This document shows positions 3,112 through 53,700 of a stretch of DNA of 64,000 bases, in pieces. The position numbers and the translations under genes are program-made. This DNA comes from Nereocystis luetkeana (Eukaryota > Sar > Phaeophyceae > Laminariales > Laminariaceae), in the NCBI GenBank assembly GCA_031213475.1, contig JARUPZ010000018.1:8878406-8942405 (forward strand), read 5' to 3'. Below the pieces are notes generated by a model. It was not told the DNA's origin, did no database searches, and worked only from the letters and a program-made list of their open reading frames with translations. The number at the start of each line of letters is the position of its first letter. Position 1 is the stretch's first letter.

Positions 3112-4551
<1,440 letters not shown>

Positions 4552-5039
4552 TGTGATAGATATGGCCGAGGTAAGGGTAAAGGACGCAGGTGTTTCTGGC
4601 AGCTAGGAAGCAGTGCTTCGCTTCTTCTTATATAGATCTTCTTTATTGATGACTAGAGCTGAGGAGGTGCTCTGGTAGAGAAGTGAGAGGTAGGGGGGTG
4701 GGACTCGACGCTCAGATATACTCGTCCCACCCCACGCTACGAGCTCTCCTAAATTCCTCTTATCTAACGTACTCCTAAATAACTTTCCTAGGGCTACCGA
4801 TAGTTCTTCTGCTAATATAAGAACTTCTCACTTTACGATCCTATCTGCGTTAAGGAACATTACTCTTGTCTAACGACCTATCCGCCTTAGAGAACATTCC
4901 TAAAAGACGGTTACTCTCAACTACCGGAATATCCGCCGGGTTAATCCATTCTTTGGATTATTCTCGTATTCCTCAGGCTACGAAACTGCCGACTATATTA
5001 TCTATATCTATAGCCCATGAGCACTCGACTCATATCACA
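4552..5039 (-). repeat. 3' LTR of the gypsy element
   Basis: 488 bp, TGTGATA...TATCACA with 7-bp terminal inverted repeats. It appears identical to 14402-14889. It is the 3' LTR because the element's genes read on the minus strand. Confidence 0.95.
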
Positions 5040-6436
5040 TTAGCCCACCCTGAATAGTCGTATATGCAGACCACAATATGGTCGAAGGATGATGACAAAG
5101 TTATCCCAAAAGACCAGGAAAAGGTGGTCGAAGATGCGGCTATTCGAAACAAATAAATGAGGCTATAGATCCCCCCACACCTCGTCATAAGACCCAAACA
5201 CTGCGAAGGGGTGTTTACTTAGAACAACCACTTAAAGGTAGAGACCGAAGGAGAGGAAGAAATAACTCAAAGCGGAAGCGAAAGCAGAGAAAGGCAAAGC
5301 GAAAACCGAAGAAAGAAGAAAGAAAACAGGAGACAGAACAAAAGCCGAAGCGAAGGCTGAAGAAGAAAACTAGTACCGAAGTGAAGGCGAAAGAAGGGCG
5401 CACAAAAAGGTGCGAACGGAGGTTGGTCGCCGAACCGGGTTGGCAAACTAGGAAACTCACGAAAGGAGGCAGTGACCGCAATACAAAAAAAAAACACATA
5501 TATATTTGGTAGGAGTAATGCCTTGTCTTGTGGCGGAGGTCCTAACGTGGTAGACATCACTCGAGAGAAACGGGGCACTGCTAAAGTGCAAGAGGGCTGC
5601 GTACACTAGAGGCTATTCAAACCGGGAGACGGAGCGAACAACGCTGCGTCTGGGAGACCTCTTCGTGGTATGAACTATACCAGCAAACGTAGCAAGGTTT
5701 TTAACTCAAGAAGAAAAAACTGAAGAAGATCCGCAAGGAGATTGGCCTAATGCGTGCAGTTCAAGGTGGTAGATAGCGCAGGGCTAAAACACTAGCGTGT
5801 GCAACTCGGCCAACAGGGGCGACATCAAAGATGGTATCGTTTGCCACAGAGCAGAGGGGCGCGCGGAATACCGAACAAAAGATGAAGAAACCTAAGAAAA
5901 AGAAAACAAAGGACGATCGGGACCAGGAAACTAACTGAAAGCAGAACACAAGTCATGGAAAATCGATCTTGGTAGAACCGCCATGGTTGATAACTCTGCC
6001 GCCTTCCGGGGTGGCAATGCTATCCGGACCCTACTAGGCAAACATAGAAGAAACACGGGCGAGCTGGAAGCTCGATAAAATCTTAGCTCGATGACCGTCT
6101 GAATCAGGGGTCGGTGGAAACCGACGGAGGCTAGGGTACAGCCCAGGCTACGACACGATTTTACCTCGGCGTAGTATTGCCAATAATTTGCGGTAGGCTA
6201 GTGAAGTACAAACACATATGAAAATGATGGTATCGCTACGACTCGGTGGCCTGAACGTAAGAAGGCAACACGGAGGTGTAGGCGGTATGAAGAAAACAAA
6301 AGGTAGACGGAAATATATGCACCCAAGAAGCTGGCTGTTGGTGGCTATTGAAGACTAACCCTGAAGAACTACTTTAATATATTGTTGACTAACCAGAAAC
6401 AAGTACCCAGAACTAAAAAAAAATGCTAAACCAAGG
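5040..6436 (-). other. 3' untranslated region of the gypsy element
   Basis: Region between the last coding module and the 3' LTR. Between about 5220 and 5420 the plus strand is rich in GAAGCGAAAGC-type purine repeats. No conserved domain is seen. The sequence next to the LTR (minus strand CAGGGTGGGCTAA) is a weak candidate for a polypurine tract. Confidence 0.5.
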
Positions 6437-6760
6437 CTATCCAGGGGGGGGAGTGGAAACCGTGGGGGCTCCGCGGGACACATCAGAGTTCCGCAGCAGC
6501 CCACGTGCTAGGCTCCCATTCCCATGGCGTTGAAGACACCACGATCCGTACACGGCGTTCCGTGCTGTAGTGTAGCGGGAGGGTTGAAGGTCGATCTTGA
6601 TCGGTCCGGGGTCATCCAGGAACCGGATGATGTAGGAGCCGCCCGGTGAAGGTTTCGGTGGAGCTCCCGAAGAGACGTCCGGGGGTGAGCGGTGAGCGAT
6701 TTTGCCCAGCCACCAGAGGCCGTCGCGCGCTTTGTACCATATATATGTGCGCTCCGGGGG
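6437..6760 (-). pseudogene. Tudor-like C-terminal module of gypsy Pol
   Basis: Minus-strand frame with YIWYKARDGLWWLGKIAHR and, about 30 residues later, YIIRFLDDPGPIKIDL, then a stop at 6437. Aromatic 'W.KA....WW.GKI' followed by 'Y...FLDD' resembles a Tudor or PWWP-type barrel. This is pattern similarity only. It lies in a different frame from the chromodomain just upstream, and the change falls at the G7 run near 6758-6764 (CCGGGGGGGAGG). A one-base change there would join the two modules. Confidence 0.5.
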
Positions 6761-6935
6761 GGAGGATGGTGGTGCTGAAGTTGTGGAGCCAGAGGCTGCG
6801 GGAGACCAGGGCGTAGCCGGGGGCGAGAAAGATTTGTCCTTGAGATCGTGCCAGTTCGCGGTGGGCAGCGCCGATGCGCATCTGGCGGTAGAGGCGGTTC
6901 GTCTGGCGGTGTTGTGTCGGCGCTCCTGACCAATA

Positions 6936-7149
6936 GAGTAGGATGTTGCGCCGGAAGTGTTGAAGGTCCAGCTCGCGTTCCCAAGAGGGGCTGAGAAGTC
7001 CAGCCCAGTGGGTCTCGTACAGAACGGCGATGACCCCGCCGCGGCCGCGTACGAGTTGATGGCCGGTGATCTGCTCGACCTCGAGGCGTTCCGGTGGGGG
7101 AGTGACGTCGTCGACGGTGACGTGGTAAGGTGGGGACTTGGCGGCGGAA
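6936..7149 (-). pseudogene. Chromodomain of gypsy Pol
   Basis: Minus-strand frame reading ERLEVEQITGHQLVRG, then IAVLYETHWAG, then PSWERELDLQHF. This follows the chromodomain pattern 'VE.I..H...RG...YLV.W.G....SWE.E.DL'. Chromodomains at the integrase C-terminus target chromoviruses to chromatin carrying particular histone marks. The frame differs from the integrase just upstream, with the shift near 7150-7165. Confidence 0.75.
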
Positions 7150-8607
7150 GCTGTGAGTACGTACCAGGTATGTAGTGAGGTCCGCGGGCAGATGCTTGGG
7201 GATGTCGCTGGTGTCGTCGGGGTTCCGGCAAGGTTTGCATCGTTGAACGGAGACGCGTGGCTTGGAGTCCCGTCCCGGGAGGTCGGATGGAAGGTCGAGG
7301 AAAAGTAGCTTGTCGTGAAGAGGGCGGTTGTCGGGGGTGTTCGAGGCGGGCGTCGGTCCAACGGCGAGGACCTTGAAGGGCCCATTCCAGTTCAGGGAAA
7401 GCTTCGTCTTGAGTACAGTTGCGTCGGTGCCCTTTTTGACGCCTTGGCGAATGGTTGAGGCGGAGTTGTAGACCCAAACCCAGCCGCCGACGGCGAAGGG
7501 GGGGGATGCTCGGAGGGCGGTCATGATGGGCGCGTTGCGGCGCTGGAGACGCGAGACGGTGAGTCGGTGTAGTTCGCGGACGAGGGAGTACGCGCGTCGT
7601 TGTCGGTCGGTGGCGAGGTTGATGTAGACCAGATTATCGCGGTCCAAGCTTTGGTGGCCGCCGATGTTGTCGGGTTCGAAAACCGAGAGCGGGAGGCGAG
7701 GAAGGCGGCCCATGTGGATTTCGTTAGGCGCAAACCCTGTAGCGGCGTTCACGGAGTTGTTGTAGGCCGACGACACGTGTGGCAGCAGCACGTCCCAGTC
7801 GGTCTGCTGTTCGTTGCCGACCATAGAGAGCATTTGGGCAAACACATGGTTGACGCGCTCAACGCCGCCGTTGGTGCAGGGGTGGTAGGAGCTGGTGTTG
7901 ACCTTGCGGATACCAAGGCGCTCGTAGACGATGTTTGCAAGCTTGGAGGTAAAGTGTAGTCCGTTGTCGGAGAGAAGCGTAACCGGGCACCCCCAGAGAG
8001 GAATGTATTCGTTCAGGAAGATGTCGGCGGTGCCGGCGGCCGTGAACTGCGCCGCTGAAACGGCAAACATATCGGCGCGCCGGCTGAAGCGGTCGGTGAA
8101 GAGAAGGATGTGGACGTTGCCGCGCGGCGTGAGCGGCAGGGGTCCGAAGTAGTCGACGCTGACGGTGATGCCAGGCCCGTTGGGCAAAGGAAGAGAAAGG
8201 ATGGGCCAGCGAATGGTGTGCCGGGAGGTTTTCCGCGCCTGGCATTGAAGGCAGCGGCGGATCCACCAGCGGGCGGAAGCGTCCATGCCAATCCACCAAA
8301 AGAAACGTGCCAGCATGCGGACCGTTCGGGTGACTCCTAGGTGTAGAGAGGTGGTGGCGTGGCAGGTGTTCAGCACCCAGGGGCGCATTAACATTGGCAC
8401 GTAGATGCGTGGGGTAAGGGGGACGGGTGGTGGTAGGCTGTTCCCGGGTGGGGGTGGGGGTGGTTGTTGGACCAGGAGGGTGGTTCCGTCGTCCGTACGG
8501 TGCAGCTTGCTTTTGGAGGCAAGGGTGAGGACGTCCGGAAGTTGTGGGCGCCGGGCCGAGGGGATGAAATCCAGGAGGTCGTTCGGCGGGGGGGCAGGGG
8601 AGTCCAA
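7150..8607 (-). pseudogene. Integrase of gypsy Pol
   Basis: Open frame of about 480 informative residues counted from 8607. The zinc finger is H83-x5-H89-x29-C119-x2-C122. The catalytic core is D152 (VSVDYFGPLPL), D214 (LLSDNGLHF) and E250 (TNGGVERVNH), giving the DX35E spacing of retroviral-type integrases. A GPF/Y-like motif (NWNGPFKVLAVG) lies near residue 409. The domain inserts cDNA into chromatin. The apparent Met start is only where this frame opens: upstream reading continues in another frame and switches at the C7/G7 run at 8588-8594. All catalytic residues are present. Confidence 0.85.
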
Positions 8608-9437
8608 CGACAGGAAGCGGATGGTGGCGCAGCACAGGGGCTCTGCTCGTTGTTCTCGCGCCCAGTCTTTGAAGGTGTAGTGCTCGACGCGGGCGAGGAG
8701 GTAGGGGTCGTCATCGGGTTCGACGATGGGCTCCGGGAGGGGCAGCGACGCTGTTGGTGCCGGCGGAGAAGGCGTTGTTGGGGGGGTTGGGGTTGGGTTT
8801 GCGGGCGCAAACGGGTCGGGCGGTGCGGGAGCTGTGGCTGAAGGCGCCGTAGGAGGAGGGGGTCTTGGCTGGACCCCGGCCGGGGCGTGGGCGCACTGGT
8901 GGGTGTAGATCGTCTGCGTACGACGGGTTGTGGTCGACGGCCGAAGCGATAGTCGGCTGTGGGTCGAGGGGTTCCCGCGGCAGCGGCGATGCGATGGCGG
9001 GTCCGAGAAGATATCAGGCCTGAGACGGCTGGTTCCGTGCCGCCAGTGGTGGACGGAGGAGAGATGACGGACGGCCTGGAAGCCGAGCCTGGAGGAGCTC
9101 CGCTGTTCACGGCGGCGTTCTCGGGGCCAACAAGCAGTCCAGCGGTGGAGTCAGGGGTCGCAATAGGCCCGACGAAGGTGTCGGGTGCGGGGGAAAGGGT
9201 GGGGTGCTCCATACGTGGTCCCAGTAGGCGGAAGTCGCGGAAATCGTCGGTGGTGAAGGGAAGCGGCTGGATGGTTGGGATGGGCCTTGAAGGGGGGGAT
9301 ACGAGCCCACCCAAGCCGATACCCGGGGCGGGAGGGTCGTTCGGCGCGAAGCCGCAGGGGCGGATGAGGTAATTGCCGACGGTGTCCGGGCCGGTAAGGC
9401 GGTTGCGTCCGGTGCGGTCGGCGTCGGTGGCGGGTTG
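8608..9437 (-). other. Low-complexity Pro-rich linker between RNase H and integrase of gypsy Pol
   Basis: Minus-strand reading is open in long stretches in more than one frame and is rich in Pro, Arg, Ser and Thr. It includes the segment LRHHPLPVVGLPCPP just before the integrase. At least one frame change occurs here, so its exact protein is uncertain. No domain was recognised. Confidence 0.5.
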
Positions 9438-9797
9438 GGGGAGCCGGGAGAGGAAGTCGGCGTTGCCGTTGGCCGTGCCCTTCCGGTATTCCAGCGTGTA
9501 GGTGTACGCCGAAAGGAACTCGAGCCAGCGCCGGACGCGGGCGTTGTGTTCTCCGACCTTGGCGATGTTCTCGAGCGCCTTGTGGTCCGAGTAGATCTGG
9601 AAGCGGGTGGACCATAAATGTCCACGGAGGCGTTTGATCGCCCACACGATGCTCCCGGCCTCGAGGTCGAGGGGTGTCCACGAACGTTCGGAGTCCAGGG
9701 TGGCACGGCTGATGAAAAGGATGGGTCGGACTGAGCCGTCGGGTTGTTCTTGCTCAAGGGTCGCGCCGAAGCCGTCGATGCTAGCGTCGCAGTAGAG
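9438..9797 (-). pseudogene. RNase H domain of gypsy Pol
   Basis: Minus-strand frame with RLYCDASIDGFGATLEQ (first catalytic Asp), then DLEAGSIVWAIKRLRG, YSDHKALENI and GNADFLSRLP. This is the Ty3/gypsy RNase H order 'DAS..G.GA.L.Q', 'E...AI...R..L', 'TDHK.L', 'ADFLSR'. It removes the RNA template during cDNA synthesis. The frame differs from the RT frame, which ends at the TAG at 9781-9783. The shift lies in the overlap near 9795-9800. Confidence 0.85.
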
Positions 9798-12700
9798 GCG
9801 GATCGGCGACGGCGTCCCAGTCGGGGTAGACGAGGATAGGCGGTTCGGCAAGTTCTTGGAGGATGGCGCGGACGGTGGTTTCCATGGCGGGGGTGAAGTC
9901 GAACGTGGCGCCTTGCTTGAGTAAAGCGTTGATGGGGCGCAGACGTCGGGAGAGATTCGGCAGGAACTTGCCGTAGTAGTTGATGCCCCCAAGGAGCGAG
10001 CGCACTTGCTTCTTGTCGGTCGGCATGGGCATTCTGGTGAGGGCGGCGACCTTGTCGGAGTTGGGGCTGTAACCGCCGGCGGAGATGGTGTGTCCCAGGA
10101 AATCGGCGGTGGTGGCGCCAAGTTTGGCCTTGGCCGGGGAAAGTTTGAGGTGGTGCTTCCGGAGGCGTCCGAAGAGAGCTCTGATGTTGGCAACGTGGTC
10201 GTTGGGGTTGGGGTCGAAGACGATGATGTCGTCGAGATACGCGGCGACGCGTTCCAGGCCTTTGATGACCTCGTTGATGACCTTAACGAACCAGCCGGGG
10301 GAGGCGCTGCTGCCTTGTGGCATAACAAGCCACTCAAATAACCGGTTCGGTGTGCAGAACGCTGTCAAGGGGATGGTGTCCTCGTCGATGGTGATTTGGT
10401 GGAACGAGGAGACCAGGTCGAAGAGGGAAAAGATGCGACCTTTACCCAAGGAGTCGAGGACTTCGTCGACGCGGGGGATGGGGAGTTGTCCGAGGGAGCT
10501 GATGGCGTTGAGCTTCTTGTAGTTGATTGTGATGCGAACACCTCCGTCTTTCTTGGGGATGGCGACCATAGGGCTGGAGTATGGCGACGTGGAATGCTGG
10601 ATCAGGCCGGCAGCCAGGTACTGGTCCAATACGGCGTCGGCCTTTTTGGCGAGGATGGGGTTGATCCTATAGGGGCGGGAAGTGACCGGTGCGCTGTCCG
10701 GAGGTACCGTGATCTTGAACGGCATTAGCGAGCACGAGCCGAAGTCGGTCTTCGACGTGGAGAAGACGTCCTGGAATTCGCAGAGGACGTCGCCCAAGTT
10801 GTTGATCACCGATGGGGTCCATCCAGAACCGTGAAGGTCGAAGTTGACGTCGCGTAGGTGCAACGGTACGCGTTCCCAGAGGTCGAGGAAGCTTTTTCGC
10901 TGGTCGGCGTCGAGGCGTGCAAGGAGCTGTGGGCACGGGGCTTTTAGTGCGGTAGAGGGGTCGGCTGTTGATGGACTCTGGTCGGCCACCGGGATGTTGT
11001 TGTGGAGGGCATGTACGTCCGGAAATGGAGGGGGGAGCGGCGGGTTTAAGGAGGGATGCCCAAGGGTGGCGAGCGGTACCTGTACCAGTGGGGAGCAGGA
11101 GGTTCCGAGGAGGTCACCCGGCTCGAGTTCGGTAGATCCAGATAGGGGGACCGTTTGGTACCCGTCGTAGACGAAAATCGCCGTGTCGGAAAGGGGGTTC
11201 TCGCGGGGGAGCATGTTCACCATGTAATTCCCGGCCAATGCTGGAGCGCCTGACTGGCGCACCAGGTTGACCTTGGCGAGCTGTGGGGTAGAGGAAAGCG
11301 AAATAGCGTTGTTGCCGGCGAATCGGAGGTGGTAGACGTCGTCAGTGGAACGATCGTCGGGAATGAATGCTGAGGCTCCGTTGGGGTCGTGGTGACTTAA
11401 AGAGAGCTCACCACGGGTTTGCCGGGAAGGTTGGTGGGGGAGGGCGGGCTGTTGCCGGAGCGTGGTATACGAGCGGTGCTCGAAGCGCATCCAGCTGTCT
11501 CGTCCCAGGAGGATGGGGTGCTGCATGGTTCCAGCAGGAACTACGCAGGCCCATACTGCTAGGGCAGCGGTGGGGGTCTGGAGGCGCATAAACTGGATGC
11601 TTAAGCGGATAGAGACGGAGGTGGAGAGTGGGGCTGAGGTGCCGAAGCCTCCCCATGAACGGGGGGAACTGTGCCGTTCGCAGGCGTCGGTGGCTGACTG
11701 GGAGGCCTTCAGTTGTTCCATCGCGGTTGCGGTGATAAACGACTGGGGCGAGCCGGTATCGAGCAGTGCCACGAGTTCGCGGCGGGTAGTGGCGTCGGGG
11801 CCGCTGTGCACGAGTACCTTCGTCGTGAACGACGCGTCGTCGACGGTGATGATGCCGCCTGTAAGGCATGGTCCGTGTTCCGGTATCGGCGGCCGACGGG
11901 TAGGAAGGTGGCTGTGGGCTGCGGTGTTGATGGTGGACACTTGGGCGAAGTGGCTGATGGGGTAGGCGTCGGGTGTAGACGGTGGTAGAAGCAGCCCAAG
12001 TGGGGAGTTAGGCGGTTGCCGTGGGGGGGTCGGGCTTGTCTCGTGGATGCCGTCGGCGGTGGGGAAGACCCGGGTTGAGTCGGTGGAGGCGGGTGTTTGC
12101 TCTGGGTCGTTGGGACTGGTACCAGTAGGAAGTTGGGGGAGGCGATCGGCGTCGAAGCTTTCTCGGACGTCCATCAGTACCCGGCCCAGCAGATTCCGAC
12201 CACGCCAACGCGTCGGAATGCAGGCGTCCGGATGGTCGGCCTTGAGGCCTATGCCCCAGATGAGGTCGTGTGGGCTGGCCTCGGCAATGTGTTTATCGTC
12301 CGTTGCCGCCAGCTCTCGCCGTAGCTCCGAGTGTTGGCGGAACTTGGAGAAGTTGATGTTGAGGACGATGTTGTAGCGGTGTCGCTCCCAAACCAGTTCG
12401 TCGAAGCCGAAAACGGTGCGTCCAAGTGCTTTTTGGTCGGCCGGGTCGCGGGTCGCTTTGATGCGGCGCTCAGTGGTGGTGTCCCCGAAGAGCGCAGCCT
12501 TCTGCGCCATCATCATCTGCTCGGCGCAGTTGTATGTGACGCAATCGTGTTCGATGTCGCACAGGTACCACTGCGAAAAGACGGAAGAGGAGTCCCAGAA
12601 CAAGTGAAAGGATGAGGGGGCCTCTGCGGTGGTGTGAGCTGTTGATGGCGTGTTGGTTGTTGGGGGTGGGGGGCGACGATAATTTTTCCTATCGCCACCT

Positions 12701-13719
12701 GGCGTCGACGGGGGTAGAGTCAGCCACGACCTAGCGGTGCTGACCGGAACCCTCGTGTTCGCGGGGGAATTGCTCGGCAACGCCGAGGTACCGGGGGGGT
12801 CCACGCCGGGGCTTATACGCCGGGCGAGATGACCCTGAAAGGTGTTGACAATAATTTTTCTATCGCCACCTGGCGTCGACGGGGGTAGAGTCAGCCACGA
12901 TCTAGCGGTGCTGATCAGAACCCTCGTGTTCGCGGGGGAATTGCTCGGCAAAGCCGAGGTACCGGGGGGGTCCACGCCGGGGCTTATACGCCGGGCGAGA
13001 CGACCCTGAAGGGCCCTGTCGTCCAACTTTTGGAGGACAGGGGGATACTCGCTAGGAGATACCACACCTGGGGCCCGTGTCCACGCGTTGCACAAAGCAG
13101 GCGAGGAGGACGGGGCAGGGGGCTCAGGGCATGTCCTGGTCGACGTTGGTCGCGAGTCTTCCGTTTCTAATACGGGACTGTCCCTCGAGCTCAGGGGCAG
13201 CGGTGGTGTCAACACCGTGGCAGCGGGTGGAAGCCCGTCGTTCGCGGGTCCAACGCTGTCACAAGAAAGGCGCGCATGCTGGAACAAGCGCGTATGGAGC
13301 GGCCAATTAGAGGCAGGCTCAGGGGGCGATGGCCCGGTCGACGAAACGGTAGTTTCGTGTGAACCGGAACCGCTGGTAGCCGTAATCGTCGAGACGTTTC
13401 CCAGGGTAGCAATGTCTGGGGTCTCGGCAATGGTCGGCGAGTAGCGTTGCTCACCGCCGGAAGACGTCGAGTGGAGCATCCTGGTGAGGCTCGGCGTCTT
13501 GGCCTCCTCCCGCCCACACCTCAAGGCAATCACTTGAGCAAGAAGATCAGTGCTTGAGCAAATGGCTGGGAAATGGGCTGGGTTAGGGGGGGGGCAGGGG
13601 TCGGGGGCAGGGGTCGGGGAGGCGTGGTGCACGTGATTTACGCGTGCGTCCTGAGAGCCTCGGGTGCTCGCAGTAGATGCTGTTGGTGGAGATGCGGCAG
13701 GTGCTCCACCATCGGCTTG
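9781..13719 (-). CDS. Gypsy Pol part 1: linker, NADAR, aspartic protease, reverse transcriptase
   Basis: Open from just after the Gag UGA (13720-13722) to the stop at 9781, about 1,312 residues in the same frame as Gag. Counting from 13632, residues 1-340 are Pro/Ser/Thr-rich with an exact-frame 57-residue duplication (about 210-316). Residues 340-495 are a NADAR domain. LLDTGSPQSF at 623-632 is a retropepsin active site, followed by ILLGRDSWM. Residues 960-1200 are the RT, with FDLVSSFHQI (first Asp), MPQGSSASP and YLDD at 1132-1135. The connection domain follows (RSLLGGINYYGKFLPNLS). All RT and protease signature residues are present. NADAR between Gag and protease is not part of any gypsy layout I know. 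Expression would need UGA readthrough or recoding. Confidence 0.88.
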   Translation of the reverse strand, partial: QADGGAPAASPPTASTASTRGSQDARVNHVHHASPTPAPDPCPPPNPAHFPAICSSTDLLAQVIALRCGREEAKTPSLTRMLHSTSSGGEQRYSPTIAETPDIATLGNVSTITATSGSGSHETTVSSTGPSPPEPASNWPLHTRLFQHARLSCDSVGPANDGLPPAATVLTPPLPLSSRDSPVLETEDSRPTSTRTCPEPPAPSSSPALCNAWTRAPGVVSPSEYPPVLQKLDDRALQGRLARRISPGVDPPGTSALPSNSPANTRVLISTARSWLTLPPSTPGGDRKIIVNTFQGHLARRISPGVDPPGTSALPSNSPANTRVPVSTARSWLTLPPSTPGGDRKNYRRPPPPTTNTPSTAHTTAEAPSSFHLFWDSSSVFSQWYLCDIEHDCVTYNCAEQMMMAQKAALFGDTTTERRIKATRDPADQKALGRTVFGFDELVWERHRYNIVLNINFSKFRQHSELRRELAATDDKHIAEASPHDLIWGIGLKADHPDACIPTRWRGRNLLGRVLMDVRESFDADRLPQLPTGTSPNDPEQTPASTDSTRVFPTADGIHETSPTPPRQPPNSPLGLLLPPSTPDAYPISHFAQVSTINTAAHSHLPTRRPPIPEHGPCLTGGIITVDDASFTTKVLVHSGPDATTRRELVALLDTGSPQSFITATAMEQLKASQSATDACERHSSPRSWGGFGTSAPLSTSVSIRLSIQFMRLQTPTAALAVWACVVPAGTMQHPILLGRDSWMRFEHRSYTTLRQQPALPHQPSRQTRGELSLSHHDPNGASAFIPDDRSTDDVYHLRFAGNNAISLSSTPQLAKVNLVRQSGAPALAGNYMVNMLPRENPLSDTAIFVYDGYQTVPLSGSTELEPGDLLGTSCSPLVQVPLATLGHPSLNPPLPPPFPDVHALHNNIPVADQSPSTADPSTALKAPCPQLLARLDADQRKSFLDLWERVPLHLRDVNFDLHGSGWTPSVINNLGDVLCEFQDVFSTSKTDFGSCSLMPFKITVPPDSAPVTSRPYRINPILAKKADAVLDQYLAAGLIQHSTSPYSSPMVAIPKKDGGVRITINYKKLNAISSLGQLPIPRVDEVLDSLGKGRIFSLFDLVSSFHQITIDEDTIPLTAFCTPNRLFEWLVMPQGSSASPGWFVKVINEVIKGLERVAAYLDDIIVFDPNPNDHVANIRALFGRLRKHHLKLSPAKAKLGATTADFLGHTISAGGYSPNSDKVAALTRMPMPTDKKQVRSLLGGINYYGKFLPNLSRRLRPINALLKQGATFDFTPAMETTVRAILQELAEPPILVYPDWDAVADPPLLRR
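12148..12615 (-). other. NADAR (YbiA/DUF1768-like) domain inside the gypsy polyprotein
   Basis: About 155 residues match the NADAR pattern in order: SSFHLFWDSSSVFSQWY (family 'F....S.FSN..'), CVTYNCAEQMMMAQKA ('Y...E...Q..KA'), then LFGD, DPADQKALGRTVFGF ('K.LGR'), W-ER near 415, NFSKFRQHSELRRELAAT ('KF.QN..L...L..T'), EASPHDLIWGIGL ('E.S..D..WG.G'), and RNLLGRVLMDVRE ('N.LG..LM.VR'). In the known family these surround the active site, and the conserved Glu, Trp-Gly and Asn-x-x-Gly positions are all kept here. Members cleave N-glycosidic bonds of ADP-ribose-linked or ribosyl-pyrimidine substrates; some reverse guanine ADP-ribosylation of DNA. Activity here is inferred. Confidence 0.85.
12679..13020 (-). 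repeat. 171-bp tandem duplication in the Pol linker
   Basis: The block ATCGCCACCTGGCGTCGACG starts at 12691 and again at 12862, a period of 171 bp (57 codons), so the duplication keeps the frame. Both units contain HLARRISPGVDPP-type text and differ at a few positions (R/H, LI/PV), so the duplication is older than the last insertion. Confidence 0.85.
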
Positions 13720-14352
13720 TCAGTTGGTGCGGAAGGTTCCCGGCTGCCGTTGGTTCGAGTGGGTGGTCGAGTTGTTGCTGCCCATCCGCATGTTCGCGGG
13801 GGTGGCAGGTGCGGACGTGTTGGTCGCAGGGGTATGAACCGTCAACGCGGAAGACGAGGGGGCAGGCTCGATGCGTTGTTGTCGGAACTGTTGCCCTGGC
13901 GAGTGTCGGTTGCCGTTGTCGTAGTTCCGGCGGTTGCTATGGCGCCAGTTGTTGGAGCGCCCGTTGTCGCCGCGGTAGTTGCGGGAGTGGTTATAGTTGG
14001 AGCGGCTGTTGATGGAGTTTCCGCTACGGTTGGTGTTGTTGCCTCGACGGTTGTTGTCGTAGCGGTTGGAACTCCGCTCCAGGTTGCGCTCGTATTGCCC
14101 CCGGCGGTAAGAGAGCATCCTCTGCTGCCACTGGCGGTAGGCGTTTCCGCCGTCGTTCAGCTGTCCTAGCGCCGGGTTCAATATGCCGGACGTGTTGAGG
14201 AAGCCCTCGGAGCAGGTCTTCATGCTGTGGTCCGTGCCATTGCAGTTGAGGCAATGACCACCGTGGGCACGGAGGGCTTGGGCGCGGGCAGAGCTCGTCA
14301 GGAGTGGTGTCAGGAGCGGTGGGGTCTGAGGATTGAACGTCGTCGTCACCAT
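13720..14352 (-). CDS. Gypsy Gag-like nucleocapsid protein (CCHC), no visible capsid
   Basis: 210 codons from ATG (14350-14352, 50 bases inside the LTR) to UGA (13720-13722). Near residue 34 is a zinc knuckle CLNCNGTDHSMKTC (C-x2-C-x4-H-x4-C), which binds the element RNA. Residues 70-160 are extremely rich in Asn, Arg, Ser, Gly and Tyr, an RNA-binding or disordered composition. There is no helical capsid or matrix upstream of the knuckle, only about 30 residues, whereas ordinary gypsy Gags carry some 200-300 residues of capsid there. Either the capsid was lost and is supplied by other copies, or the true start lies elsewhere. The frame continues past the UGA directly into Pol. Confidence 0.75.
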   Translation of the reverse strand: MVTTTFNPQTPPLLTPLLTSSARAQALRAHGGHCLNCNGTDHSMKTCSEGFLNTSGILNPALGQLNDGGNAYRQWQQRMLSYRRGQYERNLERSSNRYDNNRRGNNTNRSGNSINSRSNYNHSRNYRGDNGRSNNWRHSNRRNYDNGNRHSPGQQFRQQRIEPAPSSSALTVHTPATNTSAPATPANMRMGSNNSTTHSNQRQPGTFRTN

Positions 14353-14380
14353 GTAGACCTCCTCGTAGTGTCGCAGCGGT

Positions 14381-14399
14381 TGGTCGTCAGTGGACGCCA
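14381..14399 (-). other. Primer binding site of the gypsy element
   Basis: Two bases inside the 5' LTR the minus strand reads TGGCGTCCACTGACGACCA. The TGG start pairs with the CCA end of a tRNA, as in gypsy elements primed by tRNA 3' ends. I did not identify the tRNA. Confidence 0.6.
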
Positions 14400-14401
14400 G
14401 A

Positions 14402-14889
14402 TGTGATAGATATGGCCGAGGTAAGGGTAAAGGACGCAGGTGTTTCTGGCAGCTAGGAAGCAGTGCTTCGCTTCTTCTTATATAGATCTTCTTTATTGAT
14501 GACTAGAGCTGAGGAGGTGCTCTGGTAGAGAAGTGAGAGGTAGGGGGGTGGGACTCGACGCTCAGATATACTCGTCCCACCCCACGCTACGAGCTCTCCT
14601 AAATTCCTCTTATCTAACGTACTCCTAAATAACTTTCCTAGGGCTACCGATAGTTCTTCTGCTAATATAAGAACTTCTCACTTTACGATCCTATCTGCGT
14701 TAAGGAACATTACTCTTGTCTAACGACCTATCCGCCTTAGAGAACATTCCTAAAAGACGGTTACTCTCAACTACCGGAATATCCGCCGGGTTAATCCATT
14801 CTTTGGATTATTCTCGTATTCCTCAGGCTACGAAACTGCCGACTATATTATCTATATCTATAGCCCATGAGCACTCGACTCATATCACA
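14402..14889 (-). repeat. 5' LTR of the gypsy element
   Basis: 488 bp, apparently identical to 4552-5039, with TGTGATA...TATCACA ends. It should contain the promoter and transcript start. A specific TATA element could not be chosen with confidence. Confidence 0.95.
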
Positions 14890-15149
14890 AGTCTGTGTCG
14901 TGTATCAAATTACACCCGTCTCTCCCGTCGTTACAACACACAGCAGAGTCTGCTGTGTTGTTGCCACCCAGTCAATATTAATATGTCTATAATTATATCA
15001 GACTCGGCAGTATATTAATAATATAGTAGTACCTGGTGGTGCAAGCGGGATCCACGGAAATCTCCCCTCACAGCTGCTGCTGTATAGTAGTAGTGTTATA
15101 CGGGAAGCGACCCTATCTATGAAATATACCACCACAGGTACCAGGTAGG

Positions 15150-17749
15150 TATAATATGCAAGAAGGTGATCAGTTTGGGTTCTACAAGCACCTTAAGGGG
15201 ATGAATGTGGAAGGAAAGAGGACTTTCCATTCGCAGTACATCAGGGACGAGGAAGCTAGATTACTACGAGACATAGGCCTCATCCGGGAACGATGGGTAA
15301 GGTGGTTCCATAAGCTGCTAAACACAAGGTCATCGACCCTCGACCCGACTATCGTCGATGAGCTCAAGGTCTGGCCCTCGTGCAGTCCGCTGGACGACGT
15401 CCCGTCTAGATACGAGGTGGAAGACGCGATCAGGGCGATGGCGAACCGCAAGGCGGTTGGGCCTGATGGTCTCCCAGCTGAACTTCTGAAGGTCCTGGCC
15501 GACGAGGGAGACTCGGACACCTTGGGAAGCTTCTACGAGATTATCGTCGCTGTGTGGAGGGGAGGGGTCGTGCCGCAGCAATGATGGAAGGATGCAACGA
15601 TTAAGGTGCTGCACAAGAAGAAAGACAGGACGGAGTGTGGTAACTATCGTGGCATTTCCCTAGTCGCGCATGCCGGCAAAGTGCTCCTCAAAGTCATCGC
15701 GCGCCGACTCAGCGACTATTGCGAACGGGAAGGCATCCTGCCGGAGGAGCAGTGTGGATATAGGCCCGAACGATCGACGGTCGACATGATGTTCGTGGTG
15801 CGACGCTTGCAGGAATTGGCAAGGAAGAAGGACACTCCGCTCTTCATGTGCTTTGTCGACCTCACGAAAGCCTACGACTCCGTCGACCGAACCCTCCTGT
15901 GGGCTGTCTTGGCTCGCTTTGGGGTGCCACCTAGAATGCTCACCGTTATCCGCCAATTCCACGACGGCATGCGAGCATGCGTGCGGCTGGATGACGGCGA
16001 GTGCTCAGATATGTTCGACGTGAAACAGGGCCTACGGCAAGGGTGTGTGCTCGCGCCATTGTTGTTCAACATGTTTTTTACAGCGGTGCTGCGTGTGGCG
16101 GAGAAACGTTTCACTGCTGATAAAGCCATCACGGACAGCTTGGTGCAACTCCAACAAAAGCAGGAGAAGAAGAAAAAGAAGAGGGGGAAGGCACGGGTCG
16201 GGCACGCCGACGGACAGGGGAATGATAAAGAGGCCCAGACACTGTGGGCTATGCTCTATGCCGACGATGCAGGCATAGTATCGAGATCACCCAACGGCCT
16301 GGAGAGGATGATGACGGTGATCGTGTCTGCATGTGCCGCTTTCGGCCTGACGGTCTCGGAGGCCAAGACGGAGATAATGTGTCTGCAAACGAAAGATGGG
16401 GGGAACGTGCCGTTCACCGTCACCGCCGCCGGCCAAGTGTACAAACAAACGACCGAGTTTGTGTATCTGGGCGGGGCTATCAGCGCAGATTGGACGGGCA
16501 GAAGTGTCGAGGTAACGCGTCGACTCCAGAGGGCATGGGCATGCTTCGGACGGTATAAGATGGAAATTTATGACCGCCCGGGTGTGCGCCTACGCCTGAA
16601 GGTGCGAATGCTGAGAGCCGAGGTGATCGAAACGTTGCTCTACGGTTGCGTTACTTGGAGCCCGAGCAAGACTGATTACGGTAGGCTACGGGAGGTCCAC
16701 CACAAGATGCTCCTCCGATGCATCGGGTGGCGAAAACGAAAGCGCGAAGACCACATTATATCCTATGCTAGCGCGCTTCTCAGGACAACATCTGAAAGCG
16801 TTGAGACGACGGTACGCAGACGTAGGCTCTTGTTTGCGGGCTTTGTGACACTAATGGGAGAGGAGCGTCTGCCGAAGAGGGTGATGTTTGGGGAGATGGT
16901 TGGGGGTAAGGGTTACTCCGGAGGACAGGAGTGGGACTGGATGAGGTACCTTGAGGAGGACCTCAAGGAGTTCGGCATCAAGCTCGAAGGGTGGCGCGAG
17001 GCAGCACAGAAAGCCGGCAGATGGTTCCGACGGGTCGAGGAAGGGGCGGAGGCCTTCATGCGGAAATGGCATACAGATGAGAAGGAGGCATCGGCAGAAC
17101 GGCATAGAATAGCTGCAACCACGACCACAGCCGTTGACGCCAACGCGAGTGTGCAGAATGGCAGGGAAGAGGGGGGGGGCGAAAGGGGGACGAGGGGGAA
17201 TGGCGGGGGGGGGGAGGGGAGGCGGTCCGCCCAACAGACTGAAGCCTGGTTATGGCCATCATCGTCATGATGCACTCCTTTCTTTGGGACCCAAGTAACT
17301 AGCATGGTGCCATCTGGGCAACTTTGCGTGTCTGTATGCCCCAGTGCCTGCCTTTGGTATTTTCTTTCCCCCCCGCCCGTGATTATCGCTTTTTTGTCCC
17401 TTCTTTTTTTTCATTTTTCTTTCATTCCCGTTTGTACCTCTTTGTGTCTTTGTTAGTATGGTCCGTTTTGCCTTTTTTGCGTTTTGCTATCTGCGTCTGT
17501 CTTAGTTTTGTTTTTGTTTTTCTTTTGCTTAGCTTCATCTTCTTTTTTTAGGTGTTTGTCTGCTATTAATAGTCTCCTTTTTGCTTCCCTGGTGTCCGCA
17601 GTGGTGGAGTGCGTATGCTTGTTTTTTGTTTTTTGCCTCTGTTTTTACTTGAGGGAGGTATTTCTTCCACTCCAGAGTTATTGGAGCCTGTCCTGCGACC
17701 ACGGACTGCATTGAATTGTGAGTTAATGTGAGAACAACAACAACAACAA
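15150..17749 (+). mobile_element. 5'-truncated LINE (non-LTR retrotransposon) with (CAA)n tail, copy C
   Basis: Contains a reverse transcriptase reading frame (15156-17270) and a T-rich 3' UTR beginning CTTTGGGACCCAAG. It ends in a short (CAA)5 tail at 17733-17749. Two other copies of the 3' end lie at 1378-1701 and 3112-3646. No endonuclease domain precedes the RT, so the 5' part is missing. The exact 5' boundary is uncertain; the left flank between the gypsy LTR and 15150 shows no second copy. Confidence 0.85.
15156..17270 (+). pseudogene. LINE reverse transcriptase with one in-frame UGA
   Basis: About 704 codons in a single frame interrupted once by TGA at 15582-15584 (CAG CAA TGA TGG AAG). 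Upstream is the pre-RT region, including NRKAVGPDGLPAELLKV. Downstream are [20 protein letters not shown], the first catalytic Asp in [30 protein letters not shown], the catalytic [11 protein letters not shown], and a C-terminal region with [24 protein letters not shown]. These are standard non-LTR RT motifs in order. Every catalytic residue is intact and only the UGA breaks the frame. The clade is not assigned: the C-terminal 'RRRRL.F.G' pattern suggests the RTE/CR1-like group, but weakly. Confidence 0.85.
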
Positions 17750-17835: not shown

Positions 17836-18334
17836 TGTGATATGAGTCGAGTGCTCATGGGCTATAGATATAGATAATATAGTCGGCAGTTTCGTAGCCT
17901 GAGGAATACGAGAATAATCCAAAGAATGGATTAACCCGGCGGATATTCCGGTAGTTGAGAGTAACCGTCTTTCAGGAATGTTCTCTCGGGCGGATAGCCC
18001 GTTAGACAAGAGTAATGTTCCTTCACGCAGATAGGACCATAAAGTGAGAAGTTCTTATATTATTAGCAGAAGAACAATCGTTAGCCCTAGGAAAGTTATT
18101 TAGGAGTACGTTAGATAAGAGGAATTTAGGAGAGCTCGTAGCGTGGGGTGGGACGAGTATATCTGAGCGTCGAGTCCCACCCCCCTACCTCTCACTTCTC
18201 TACCAGAGCACCTCCTCAGCTCTTCTAGTCATCAATAAAGAAGATCTATATAAGAAGAAGCGAAGCACTGCTTCCCAGCTGCCAGATACACCTGCGTCCC
18301 TTACCCTTACCCTTACCTCGGTCATATCTTCACA
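17836..18334 (+). mobile_element. Solo LTR of the same gypsy family
   Basis: It starts TGTGATATGAGTCGAG and ends ATATCTTCACA, and matches the reverse complement of the 488-bp LTR along its length with scattered differences. It is flanked by the 4-bp duplication AGTG (17832-17835 and 18335-18338). No internal sequence is present, so it is the footprint left by recombination between two LTRs. It is older than the full element at 4552-14889. A TTACCC triplet repeat near the right end is an expansion absent from the full-length LTRs. Confidence 0.92.
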
Positions 18335-25200: not shown

Positions 25201-28200
25201 TACTCTCTATTGCTTTGCCACACGGGCACATCTGCGCATCTATTTCCTCCTCCTCCTCCCGGCTACTGGAGCGAGGGGGGGAGGGAGATGAGACACACAG
25301 CAACAGCACAAGAAGGGTATCAACAGTAACCAAAATACACCAGTGCCTGGTACGTACCAGGCATGAATTACCTGGTATTAAATACCAGCACACGTCAAAA
25401 GAAGGGAAAAGGGAGAAGTTGACGGGGAACAAGGGTAGCCGTGTCCAAGGCAAGCAGCGGGGGAAAAACGAGGGAAAAGAAGACTATCCCAGGGGGGTAG
25501 TGCTGAGAGAGAACGAGCTTCGTTCTACAGAACAGCCGCACAGGAGTCCACGACAGCAGTACACCAGCAGCAACTTTATCGCAGGCTGCGATCGACGGAT
25601 CGGGGCCCTGGGTTCGGCGGCCGAGGTAGCGGACACGGAAGAAAGACATCATACATCAAACGTCACAGAAAGGGAGGCCCCAGGGTAGACATCATACATC
25701 CTACATAACGACAGGGGGGGGGGAGCGGGGGCGTGAAACCCCTCAGCACGCGCCGCAACGCTACTACGGTGACAAGCCAGAACGGTCAAGGTCACATCCT
25801 CCTCTTCCTCCTCCTCCTCCTCCCCTCCGTCGCCCCCGCCTCCTCTCCCATTACGTCCACTTTCTTCTCCACCACTACCACCTTCTCCTTTTCCCCCACC
25901 ACTACCACCTCCCCCCCCCCCTTCCTTTCCAACTCCCGCCCTTTCCTGTCCACCTCCTCCTCCTTCTCCTTCCTCCCCTCTCCCCCCTCCCCCGACACCA
26001 CCTCCTCCTCCCCTCCCCTTTTCTTCTTCCATCGCCATCACCTCCTCCTCCTCCTCCTCCTCCCCCCCTTCTCCTGCTCCCCCTACCTCCTTTTCCTCCG
26101 CCTTCCTGCCAAGACACATCCCACCCCACCCCACGCACCTGCTCGTCGATCTTGGCCCCCGGAGCCAGGCTGGTGGCGATCGCCATGAGCGCCATCATCT
26201 TGTCGGCGATCTTGGGAACCTCGTCCTGGTAGCCGGAGCGCTGCAGCTGGCCGCTCCGGACAGCGCGCCCTACGTGTACCAACGCCTGCACATGAAGACC
26301 ACATTTAGACGCGTTGAGACACGTTAAGACACACAAAAAAGAAACACAAAAATAAACAAACAAAAAAAACATGAAATGGGGGTGCACACAACAAACGAAG
26401 GGGTGCGCTTGTGACGTTGGCAACTCACCCCCCCTCCCCAAAAAAAAAACAAAAAAACGCAGCATATGGTGGAAGTTTCTCTACTATTACGGGGGACCAT
26501 AGTTAATAGGACCTATGGTATACATAAAACCCTATATATTTAAACAATTTTACTAACGATATTTGGTCCTATTAACTATGGTCCCCCGTAATATTACATG
26601 GAAGCATAGTTAATAGACCCAAATTTTGTTAGTAGAAATAGTAGTAAGAACGGTGCTCCGTCTCGAAAGGCATGCGTGGCCAATAATTGTCACTTGACTA
26701 AGGCAAGCAACAAATGAGTACTTATGCAAGATTAAGAAGATTTCGGACACAAAAAAACATAACACGAAGGAGTGCACACAAAACAAGGAGTGGGTGCTTG
26801 TGATATTGGCAAATCGCCCTTTCGCCCCCCCCTCCCCCTCCTGATCGGACCTCTTCCCCTCCCCCCCACCTCGTTGAGGATGCGCGCGGCATCCTTGTAG
26901 CGCTTGAGCATGAGGAACGCTAGCCCCGCGTGCTGGTGGACGGTGACGAAGGCCAGCATATTGGAGGCGAACAGAGCGTCCTTGTCGGTGATGTCGATCG
27001 CCTCGAGCACCTTGATGCCTGCGCCGAGGGCGGTGGGGGGGGGGGGTGCGTGGGGGTGGGGGGGGGGGATGGGGGTGGCGGGAGCGATGAGGCATTTTTG
27101 CAAGGGTTTTCGAGCAGCAGAGTATACGACTTGGCCTAGCTTCGACAAAAATGGTTGATCGATCGTCCACCCTACTGCAACTCCTCGGTTCTCAGACAAA
27201 AGAGTTGACGGTCCACACTAAACTCCTCACTAGTTCTTCGACGAAATGGTTGATTAAAAGTCCGTCCGCACTTCCTCCTTATTTACTTCTTTCCGAGAAA
27301 GTTCCCAGGCGGTGAAACCTATTATCACTCTGGGCGCAAGTAGAAGCACCGCTTAGTCTTGATATTACTGTATAAACGTTCCTTATAGTTCCGACCAGGG
27401 TGGCAGAAGTAACTCTTCTCTGGGCGTAAATAGAAGGACCGCTTAGTATTGATATTAGTGTACAACCGGTCCTTATATTTCCGACCAGAGTGGTAGAAGT
27501 AACGCTTCTCTGGGCGTAAATAGAAGGACCGCTTAGTCTTGATATTACTGTACAAACGGTCCTGATATTTCCGTCCAGGATGGTAGAAGCAACCCTTTTA
27601 GCACTGCGCAGTACAGAAACCTAAATCTGACTATGATTCCAGGGTTTGTTTTTTAGGTTCCCACAATGGGATTTCAGTCCTGTAGAGATCAAGGTCACAG
27701 AGTTGGCGTTTTAAAAGACAACTACTAGTATATTTCAACAATCTCGCCGAAGCTACGCCTTAATACACACAGCCCTTGTTTCGAGGGTGGTGGAGGGGGG
27801 GTGTGTGGTGGTGGTGGGGAGGGGGAGAAACCGGGTCGAATGTAGAATGTGGAAGGGGTTGGGGAAAGGATGGGGAGACGGAGTTCTATATATGAGAGAG
27901 AGGGGGGGTGGGGGGCGGGTGTACTCGATACCATGCATGGCCATAGTCGTATGAGCACAGACCTTCGCATCCCTACAATGGCGGGACGGAGCACGTCGGG
28001 TTTTCACCGACCAGACATTGCTTGCACCATGCTCTGCGAAGCGTAATGTGAGGTGTCCGGCGAGTCGCATGTGTGGTGAGCTGCATCCTACTATGAGCCA
28101 CTTGTGAGGCGGACACTCTCACGATGTCAGCTTCATTGATTTTATTTATTTTCCGGTGTGGCCACTTCCAGAGACAGCAATGGGGGTACTATGTAACTGC

Positions 28201-50700: not shown

Positions 50701-53700
50701 GAATTCACCTTCGCCTATGAGAATTAATGTACCCCTCTCTCCTTCCCGGTTTCTCGTGCTATTTTACAAACTCTGCCTGGTGTGTGTGTGTGTGTGTGTT
50801 TTTTTTTTGTTCGTCTTCCCCTACCCCTATCCCGAAATTTCCAGATCAAAGGCGGAGGGTACCCCAGCTTCGGCGACTTCGACCGCGACCTCAAGCTCAT
50901 GTGGGAAAACTGCCGCTTGTACAACTCGGAGGTGACTTACAACAACAAAAAACGCCTGCTACATCACTCTTCGAAAAGCCCCCATGTTTCAAAGATAAAG
51001 ACCAAAAAACGTAGGCATCGACCTCCACCGGCACGAGCACGAGCACGAGGATGACGCGAAAAAAGGCACGCCAGTGCCGGCGATCAGAAGCCGCGCGTTT
51101 TCGTGCGCAAACCATGGTTCTGTGTGCTCGATCACTGGCGGGTATTGCACGGTTGGGCCCTACCTTGCCCCAGGGACATACCCGAGACATGCCTGCGATG
51201 TGCGACGCATTTCGTTGCACTATTTTCTTCGTGTAGTCAATAGTTTGCCGTTTACATAGTATAGGTAAAGTAAAACGCTGTTGTCCATATGCAAGAAAGT
51301 CCGCACAGGCGCCGAAGTCCGCCCCACAAGCGGATCGTGCTAGGATGCAGCTCGCCCTTCATGCGACTCGCCGAACACCCCACGTTACGCTTCGCGCTTG
51401 GTTGGCGCAAGCAATGTCTCGCCTGTTCGGCGAAGACCCGACGTGCTCCGTCCCGACATTGTAGGGATGTCAGGGTCTATGGTTCTACTTTTACGACTGT
51501 GGCCATGCATGACAAGGAGTACCCCCCCCCCCCGCCCCCTCCCCCCCCCCCGCCTCACTACCATCAACAACGCCACCGATAGAGGGTCTGCTACAGTTGC
51601 GGGTGCGCCGCGAACCCGTTCCGCGCAAGGGGAATTATCGTGTCACGTACCAGAGAGTGTTTATGGCATGGCTCCCACGAGGCAATTAAACATAGCAACC
51701 CCATTGCTGTCTCTCGAAGTGACCAGGCCGGACAACAAATCAATTAATTCCACGCTGTCATCCATATGCAAGAAAGCCCGCCTCACAAGCGGTTCTTAGT
51801 GGAATGCAGCTCACCCTTCGCGCGACTGGCCGAATACCCCACGTTACGCTTCGCGCTTGGTGCTAGCAATGTCTGCCTGGTCGGTGAGAATCCGACGTGC
51901 TGCGCCCGGCAGTGTAGGGATGCGAGGGTCTATGGTCATACGACAACGGCCTTACTAATTAGTGAAGATTGAGTACACCCCGCCCCCCCCCCCCCGGCCG
52001 CCTCTGCCCCCACGCTCGCCATGAACTCCCCTGCCCTCGTATCCTCTCCTTAAACATATAAAACGAAAACATAACTGGTAAAAAAATGCGGTGTCATAGA
52101 GTCCTTTGTCGCCTGTTCGTGTGTCCAAACGTCTAAAACTCCTGTCAGCAACATGTACGAATGCACGAGTACGTAGCGTTAAACTAACTGTGGTGTTTTT
52201 GTTGCGTTCTACCGGTATGTGTGTCCGCCCCTGCCTCCCTGTGTTTTTCGTGTGCCCATGTCACGCCCTTGCTGCTGAATCTCTTGGCGCAGCGTACGGA
52301 CTTTCACCAGGAGGCCTTGAGACTCGAGAAAGAGTGGTCTAAGGTTTCAACGTCTTTCGAGGACACTCTACGCCACGGCCAGGTAAACGTGCTTCGTGTT
52401 TTCTCTCTCTCTGCATGTTGTCGGAATATTATTTATCTCTTTTCAGTCTGTCCCCTGTGCAATTCTCTCTCTCTGCCTGTACCCCCCCCCCCCCCCCCTC
52501 TATTTCGCACTGCTGTGCATCCGATCGTGATTGTGCTGTTCTTTTTTATTGTCCTCACCGGTGCGTTCCGTCGGCGTCCGTCCCCTCCCCCCCTCCGTAC
52601 AAAACCTTATCGTACTCTTGGTTTTGCCCCTCCCTACGACTACGGCCATGCATGAGATCGAATGCATCTCTCCTATCGAGTACACCCTACCCCCACCAAT
52701 CGCACGCCTCTTTGTTCGGCATCCTGTGTGTGCCCCCCCCCCCCCTCCCTGCCGCCGCCGGTTCTTGTTGCCGAACGCATCCAATCCATCTCAAGAACCG
52801 ACCCGGTCAAAGTTCATCCGCCGCGGGCGCCGGCAGCAGCCACAAGCGCAAGGGAAGCTCTTCCTCGCAGGACGACGCTCGAGGCGGTAGTGGCGGCGGT
52901 GGCGGTGGGGGTGCACCCTTGACCGCCATGGCCCCCGCCACCCAACTGGACGGGCAAGGCCTCGGCCGCCGCGTGGGCCTAGCCGCCATGCTCCTATCGG
53001 AGCCTTTCGTGTCCAAGCTCATGTACCGGCACGCGTCCGAACGCGTGCCGGAGGCCTGCCGTGCGGGCGAGACTCTGCCGCGCAGCCACCCGACATTCGC
53101 GCCGCTGATGCAGCTGCTCGAGCTCGGGGACGCGGCCCGCGCGATGTTTCGCGCGGGCAGCTTCGGGGTTCGCGCCGTGGAGCAGAACCTCACGAGGGCC
53201 GTGCTTCCCAGCGTCGTGGCGCTTCACGCGCGCGCGGAGCGCGCCATCGCCCGTCGTGCCGCCGACGGACCGGAGAGGCCGGACGAGCCAGACGGACCAC
53301 CAGCAGCCGCAGCAGCGCCGGCGGCAGCGGCAGCGGCGGCGGCGGTGGCGGCGGCGGTAGCAGCAGCGAAGAAGAAGAAAGCGGCGCTAGAGGACGAGGC
53401 AGACGCGGTGGCTGCACCACCGCAGGACTGGAAGACGTGGTACAAGGAATTTCCGGCGGTCAGACGCGTGGTTTGTACGATGCTGTGCCGCGCTCTGGTG
53501 AGGAACGGGGATGAGGCCGCCGCGCTGATGATGCCGGCGGCGCGCGCGGCCGTGAGGAAGATGGCCGACGAGCAGTGGCTATGGGCGAGCCTCGCGGAAC
53601 TGCTGCAGAAGAGCGCGACGCTGGTGGCGAAGGCGGGGGGCGACGCGAAAAAAGCTGGGCGGGTTATCCAACCCGAGGTAATTTTGTAATTATGGGTGTT

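Follow-up and report, generated by a model that had tools for sequence, protein, structure and literature searches.

A YbiA-subfamily NADAR domain in the Pol polyprotein of a Ty3/Gypsy lineage of Nereocystis luetkeana

Background

Retrotransposons of the Gypsy type can carry a NADAR domain. A lineage of Gypsy elements whose Pol starts with NADAR was described in 2025 from the brown alga Ectocarpus (PMC12477816). The element described here is a further example; it is a Ty3/Gypsy long terminal repeat (LTR) retrotransposon in a 64,000-nucleotide stretch of the Nereocystis luetkeana genome (assembly GCA_031213475.1, contig JARUPZ010000018.1, positions 8,878,406 to 8,942,405), which is called the window below. 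Going by the available text of the Ectocarpus report, NADAR lies in the N-terminal region of Pol both in the window and in the Gypsy-12_Ec32 lineage, and both genomes hold several families of one such lineage. The genomes differ in size: about 197 Mb in Ectocarpus (implied by 55.2 Mb being 28%) against 465 Mb here. The Gypsy-12_Ec32 lineage has a C-terminal chromodomain; in the window a stretch after integrase gives a Chromo match below the cut-off. The likeness is one of description. A UGA arrangement, a linker repeat and selection at the level of copies do not figure in the Ectocarpus text. A sequence-only reading of the window had known of no described Gypsy lineage with this domain, a view which the Ectocarpus report contradicts. 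Beyond that report, no other literature on NADAR in retrotransposons was found among open-licence papers, judged by listings. New here are copy counts, codon evidence, a stop codon shared between Gag and Pol, and two further domain arrangements in the Gypsy polyproteins P0024 and P0006.

The closest described enzyme is the YbiA-subfamily NADAR of Phytophthora nicotianae (structure 8bau); the accessible part of its report describes no retroelement context (PMC11543638). An oomycete NADAR of the YbiA type hydrolyses guanine-linked ADP-ribose (PMC11543638). NADARs tested, including E. coli YbiA, also take ADP-ribose off guanosine in RNA, and among the hydrolase families tested only NADARs did so (PMC11833690). 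NADARs act on guanine in DNA as well (PMC11833690, PMC11543638). The role of NADARs in eukaryotes is described as unclear (PMC11125620, Discussion).

Enzymes of this kind are also found in other polyproteins. In positive-strand RNA viruses of eukaryotes, NADAR or Macro is embedded with the polymerase, as here; in animal RNA viruses the two are reported to be largely mutually exclusive, whereas P0006 has both (PMC9503650). Retroviral dUTPase is a captured nucleic-acid-cleaning enzyme in comparable slots, a likeness in working and not in kinship; retroviruses acquired it three times, on the N-terminal side of Pro, inside pol and on the C-terminal side of integrase (PMC1224870). The slots seen here are N-terminal of protease (NADAR, window), between RNase H and integrase (NADAR, P0024), and C-terminal of integrase (Macro, P0006). 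The retroviral slot within pol is likewise the one between RNase H and integrase. dUTPase and NADAR are unrelated in enzyme and chemistry.

Results and discussion

Domain identity and catalytic residues

Judged by sequence, a YbiA-subfamily NADAR is built into the Pol of this Ty3/Gypsy lineage. The sequence-only reading had placed the domain at 12148-12615, in one open frame with a Pro-rich linker, retropepsin and reverse transcriptase (RT). The Pfam match (Table 1) falls inside that interval, and the motif blocks named in that reading are present in the translation. Against PF08719 the domain scores 159.4 bits (cut-off 35.1) over residues 345-492 of a 1283-aa frame, which also holds the RT match. 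The identity of the domain in the window Pol is near certain; it also matches 8bau by sequence (E=1.3e-16). In that alignment E43, K50 and E125 all pair with equivalent residues (numbering of PMC11543638; the 8bau chain numbers are two higher). Among the window and 47 further loci, E43 is retained in 47 of 48, K50 in 47 of 48, and E125 in 46 of 48. Position 125 is Glu, the YbiA-subfamily type, and not Asp or His. Mutational work on the E. coli C7 NADAR is reported to show that the residues corresponding to K50 and position 125 matter, with mixed effects for the one corresponding to E43 (PMC11543638).

Copy number and families

The domain is not confined to the window. A NADAR profile search of the 465-Mb genome gave 778 candidates; the best 150 were scored, and all 150 were above the cut-off. 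A search with the window NADAR domain (197 residues) gave 800 candidates, and all of the best 150, which were scored, matched. A hand count within these finds at least 94 places, window included, with at least 91% identity over 196-197 of 197 residues. Other matches are 43-56% identical and make up at least three further families (B, C and D, besides family A). Counting family A, four or more diverged families in the host genome carry NADAR ahead of the protease.

A chosen subset of 48 NADAR loci was fetched, one of which (L009) is the window itself. Protease and/or RT is found downstream on the same strand in all 48. Protease is so placed in 46 (in L006 it is on the other strand, and in L008 it is absent); RT follows in 44, being absent within the fetched stretch of L039, L040, L041 and L046. 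Chance capture or an assembly artefact in one copy has next to no probability. The window copy is indeed shortened and frame-broken, as such an accident might be, but a NADAR-bearing Gypsy lineage was reported independently from Ectocarpus (PMC12477816, as available). A single chance capture is ruled out by the near-full-length matches and the diverged families in the same genome.

State of the window copy

The window element has complete TG...CA termini at both ends. Its LTRs are identical (488/488 bp), which suggests a recent insertion. The Ty3/Gypsy order of protease, RT, RNase H and integrase is present; RT, RNase H and integrase were found by Pfam and protease by motif. Retropepsin has no Pfam match at E 0.01, and its support is the LLDTGS motif. 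No stop interrupts the Pol frame between 13719 and 9784 (1312 aa). This frame reaches only through RT; RNase H and integrase sit in other frames. A Pfam scan of the short Gag piece gave no match. As a possible tRNA primer site and polypurine tract, a TGG lies close to the end of the 5' LTR and a stretch of purines precedes the 3' LTR; no tRNA was matched.

An LTR search of the genome (best 40 of 591 candidates scored) shows longer relatives. Besides the window, at least 13 same-strand LTR pairs on one contig occur among the LTR matches listed. Ten span 14.0-14.5 kb and the rest 5.6, 12.1 and 15.8 kb; the window copy spans 10.3 kb. Twelve of the 13 pairs enclose a NADAR match, the exception being the 5.6-kb pair. 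Many of the scored NADAR matches fall within open frames 2,000 to 2,428 aa long. By these comparisons the window copy derives, in shortened and frame-broken form, from elements that are mostly about 14 kb long. In four copies (L085, L086, L087, L089) the match to the window Gag starts only at the point 113 bases past the window LTR, and at least 2 kb more sequence lies upstream of it without an LTR match; this extra sequence is missing from the window copy. L087 has a 419-aa open frame at 1712-2968, upstream of the CCHC frame and in a different phase, which may be the Gag part that the window copy lacks. Five loci (L011, L027, L033, L034, L036) share the final 49-53 bases of this 113-base leader, and it is therefore possible that the shortened form has spread too; the fetched stretches of most other loci end short of that region.

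Table 1. Features of the window element and its family in the window
Feature	Position	Strand	Basis
Whole Ty3/Gypsy LTR retrotransposon copy, 10,338 bp	4552..14889	-	LTR pair and flanks
5' LTR, TGTGATAT...ATCACA	14402..14889	-	100% identity to 4552-5039 over 488 bp
3' LTR, 488 bp	4552..5039	-	LTR pair identity
Target-site duplication GACT, 5' side	14890..14893	.	Flank sequence
Target-site duplication GACT, 3' side	4548..4551	.	Flank sequence
Short Gag piece, one CCHC knuckle, ends in UGA (13720-13722)	13720..14352	-	CCHC by eye
Pol frame in phase with Gag past the UGA: Pro-rich linker, NADAR, protease, RT	9784..13719	-	
Linker repeat, 57-codon unit, two in-frame copies	12684..13013	-	
NADAR domain (YbiA subfamily)	12157..12600	-	Pfam PF08719, E=1.2e-46
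NADAR residues E / K / E	12520-12522 / 12499-12501 / 12280-12282	-	Alignment to 8bau
Retropepsin DTGS motif (within LLDTGS)	11749..11760	-	Sequence motif
Reverse transcriptase (RVT_1)	10084..10560	-	E=8.2e-28
RNase H (RT_RNaseH), other frame in window copy	9504..9809	-	E=8.4e-27
Integrase H2C2 zinc domain	8227..8400	-	E=5.6e-15, above cut-off
Integrase core (rve)	7879..8178	-	E=6.7e-6, 26.7 bits, under curated cut-off 32.6
Possible chromodomain after integrase, further frame	6942..7082	-	E=0.22, below cut-off, weak
Solo LTR of the window element's family	17836..18334	+	94.6% identical, AGTG flanks

Selection on the domain

Codon positions in NADAR are unequally conserved between families. Identity at positions 1, 2 and 3 is 62/66/38% for families A and B (42 pairs), 67/74/53% for A and C, and 61/69/45% for A and D, with six of 31 family A copies used. 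This is as expected under purifying selection between families. Two old copies with short open frames (L039, L040) are 92/93/92% identical to family A at the three positions, with a ratio of nonsynonymous to synonymous differences (pN/pS) of 0.65. Between A and C, nonsynonymous and synonymous divergence (dN/dS) is 0.37/0.98 for NADAR, 0.21/1.03 for protease and 0.09/0.90 for RT; several family pairs have saturated dS, and no ratios were taken from those. Within the family, the ratio is 0.17 for NADAR, 0.67 for protease, 0.57 for RT and 0.93 for the linker, the first being biased by the picking of copies by protein similarity to the window. The codon and residue evidence supports NADAR, with its catalytic residues, as a selected part of this Gypsy lineage.

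NADAR might also have no enzymatic use and be kept as an RNA- or protein-binding fold, or as a spacer in Pol. Its faster evolution relative to protease and RT fits that idea, but E/K/E is retained in 46-47 of 48 sequences across families about 50% identical, and we regard such a passive role as highly improbable.

The Gag-Pol border

Of the 48 loci given for alignment, 32 aligned at the Gag-Pol border, the window among them. The stop is UGA in all 32. The UGA shares the phase of NADAR in 20 loci, of which 15 have no further stop between; in the other 12 it is out of phase, and in three of the 32 a TAA directly follows the UGA, both of which speak against readthrough in the copies concerned. 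Spacing at the border differs between loci in increments of about 171 bases, which fits one to three linker units. The shared in-phase stop would most simply be explained by readthrough; the copies share it partly by descent.

Other NADAR-Gypsy polyproteins

Three length-limited protein searches led to two further Gypsy polyproteins that contain NADAR. In P0024 (1693 aa) NADAR stands after RT and RNase H and before integrase. P0006 (1560 aa, one contig) carries NADAR followed by a DTGS motif ahead of RT, RNase H and integrase, with a macrodomain behind them; among solved structures, this macrodomain best matches human MACROD1 (E=4.3e-26). The P0006 NADAR lacks the first 43 profile positions, and E43 is therefore not visible. 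P0006 may derive from a chimeric contig, though a single frame spans the whole protein. Among open-licence papers, judged by title, no literature on a macrodomain in a Gypsy element was found.

In the NADAR tree (64 rows, with 12 of the 48 host-genome loci; L060 was omitted as a twin of L051), P0006 and P0024 group together (97/88), away from the host-genome families. The latter are not monophyletic in the best tree; a single clade of them is nevertheless not rejected (approximately unbiased test, p 0.394), and a single clade comprising all Gypsy NADARs is not rejected either (p 0.344). The RT tree has 21 rows, L010 and L066 having been dropped as too short or without an RT match. In it, eight sequences of the NADAR lineage have RTs that make up a single clade (100/100), distinct from 11 further Gypsy RTs found in this genome. 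A single clade of all NADAR-Gypsy elements is not rejected (p 0.24), and neither is P0006 with P0024 (p 0.215). Separate origins of the NADAR-Gypsy groups were considered, and neither tree establishes them. Since the placements differ, at least two events are needed, either captures or moves.

No NADAR or macrodomain was seen around 22 other Gypsy loci of the genome in the fetched stretches, which are short. In viral contigs (three scans, 14 NADAR loci), none of the 14 matches the Pol of P0006 or P0024; the window Pol was not a query. Most of P0002-P0036 are large chains joining microbial PARG, ADP-ribosylglycohydrolase and NADAR, often with Macro.

Tentatively, Gypsy elements may have armed Pol repeatedly with ADP-ribose hydrolases (NADAR before protease, NADAR between RNase H and integrase, MacroD after integrase), in the manner of retroviral dUTPase; we rate this as possible but rather doubtful.

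Proposed function

The element NADAR quite possibly cleans ADP-ribose from guanines of the element's RNA or cDNA, a reading to which we give somewhat less than an even chance. A minority of translations would read through the UGA that ends Gag, and NADAR would be made in Pol. Forming the N-terminal part of Pol, it would be carried into the particle, where it would remove ADP-ribose from guanines of the element RNA or of nascent cDNA. RNA and cDNA are both templates, so guanine adducts could stop synthesis; left uncleared, they would block reverse transcription. NADAR would counter a host or environmental ADP-ribosyltransferase and would work like retroviral dUTPase, whose presence in comparable slots suggests a role in nucleic-acid house-cleaning. 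The sequence-only reading had proposed protection of the element's RNA or cDNA from host ADP-ribosylation or NAD-linked capping; the evidence here supports the domain and its selection, and such protection would be a further step.

Several points weigh against this proposal. No transferase associated with the element was found: in the genome, a PARP search had one partial match (33.1 bits, cut-off 26.7) and a DarT search had none, although intron-split genes and other transferase families may escape. The element frames scanned contain no ADP-ribosyltransferase Pfam match, and the arrangement is thus not of the DarT-NADAR type. In cells, NADARs outside DarT operons are reported to have performed poorly as antitoxins (PMC11125620, Discussion). 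The element NADAR is under weaker constraint than protease and RT, its low within-family ratio is biased, the window copy itself is defective, and the out-of-phase UGA and the added TAA codons noted above count on the same side.

Other substrates have to be considered. NADAR could act on small signals derived from ADP-ribose or NAD, or on NAD-capped or ADP-ribosylated RNA ends, and not on guanine bases; we think this unlikely, though it merits attention. For phage NADARs, small ADP-ribose derivatives have been proposed as substrates, and DUF4326 is described in fusions with SLOG, Macro and NADAR; the same source argues that polyprotein Macro and NADAR of eukaryotic RNA viruses target mainly macromolecules (PMC9503650). 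One protein, P0001, joins Macro, NADAR and DUF4326. Three proteins (P0037, P0038, P0039) fuse an mRNA capping enzyme and a cap methyltransferase to a C-terminal NADAR (P0037 and P0039 were scanned here; the P0038 domains are precomputed), which hints at a link between NADAR and RNA 5' ends. P0039 is on a 201-kb contig; our guess is that it comes from a giant virus.

The target might also be protein, with NADAR countering a silencing of the element by ADP-ribosylation of host or element proteins. MacroD enzymes act on proteins, and P0006 pairs NADAR with a macrodomain of that type; the partial PARP match in the host genome points the same way. There is a protein-mediated precedent for restraining a retroelement in mammals, where SIRT6 ADP-ribosylates KAP1 and silences L1 (PMC4695847). 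On the other hand, the demonstrated activity of NADARs in the sources available is on guanine bases, and removal from proteins is only predicted. A protein target is improbable in our judgement, and cleaning of guanines is the preferred reading.

Other features of the window

The solo LTR of the same family is in the opposite orientation to the window element. A reverse transcriptase outside the element, LINE-like by eye, lies at 15606-17270 (+; RVT_1, E=2.3e-34); parts of the sequence just past it (17280-17749) are found again at 3112-3556 and 1378-1662. DDE transposase pieces of the Plant_tran / DDE_Tnp_4 kind, which we take to be Harbinger-like, are found at 62323-63477 and 58568-59071 (-). 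There are two likely host exons: one at 26732-27199 (-) matching Paf67 (E=1.7e-11), and one at 52415-53686 (+) with a weak COBRA1 match (E=0.00046, below cut-off).

Implications

Biochemical studies of NADAR action on RNA and DNA are recent, and this lineage supplies a concrete protein to test. A selected hydrolase for nucleic-acid ADP-ribosylation in a retrotransposon polyprotein would point to ADP-ribosylation as a force acting on retroelements. If Gypsy elements have indeed repeatedly armed Pol with such hydrolases, this would reveal that eukaryotes restrict retroelements by ADP-ribosylating their RNA or cDNA, a form of restriction so far unrecognised.
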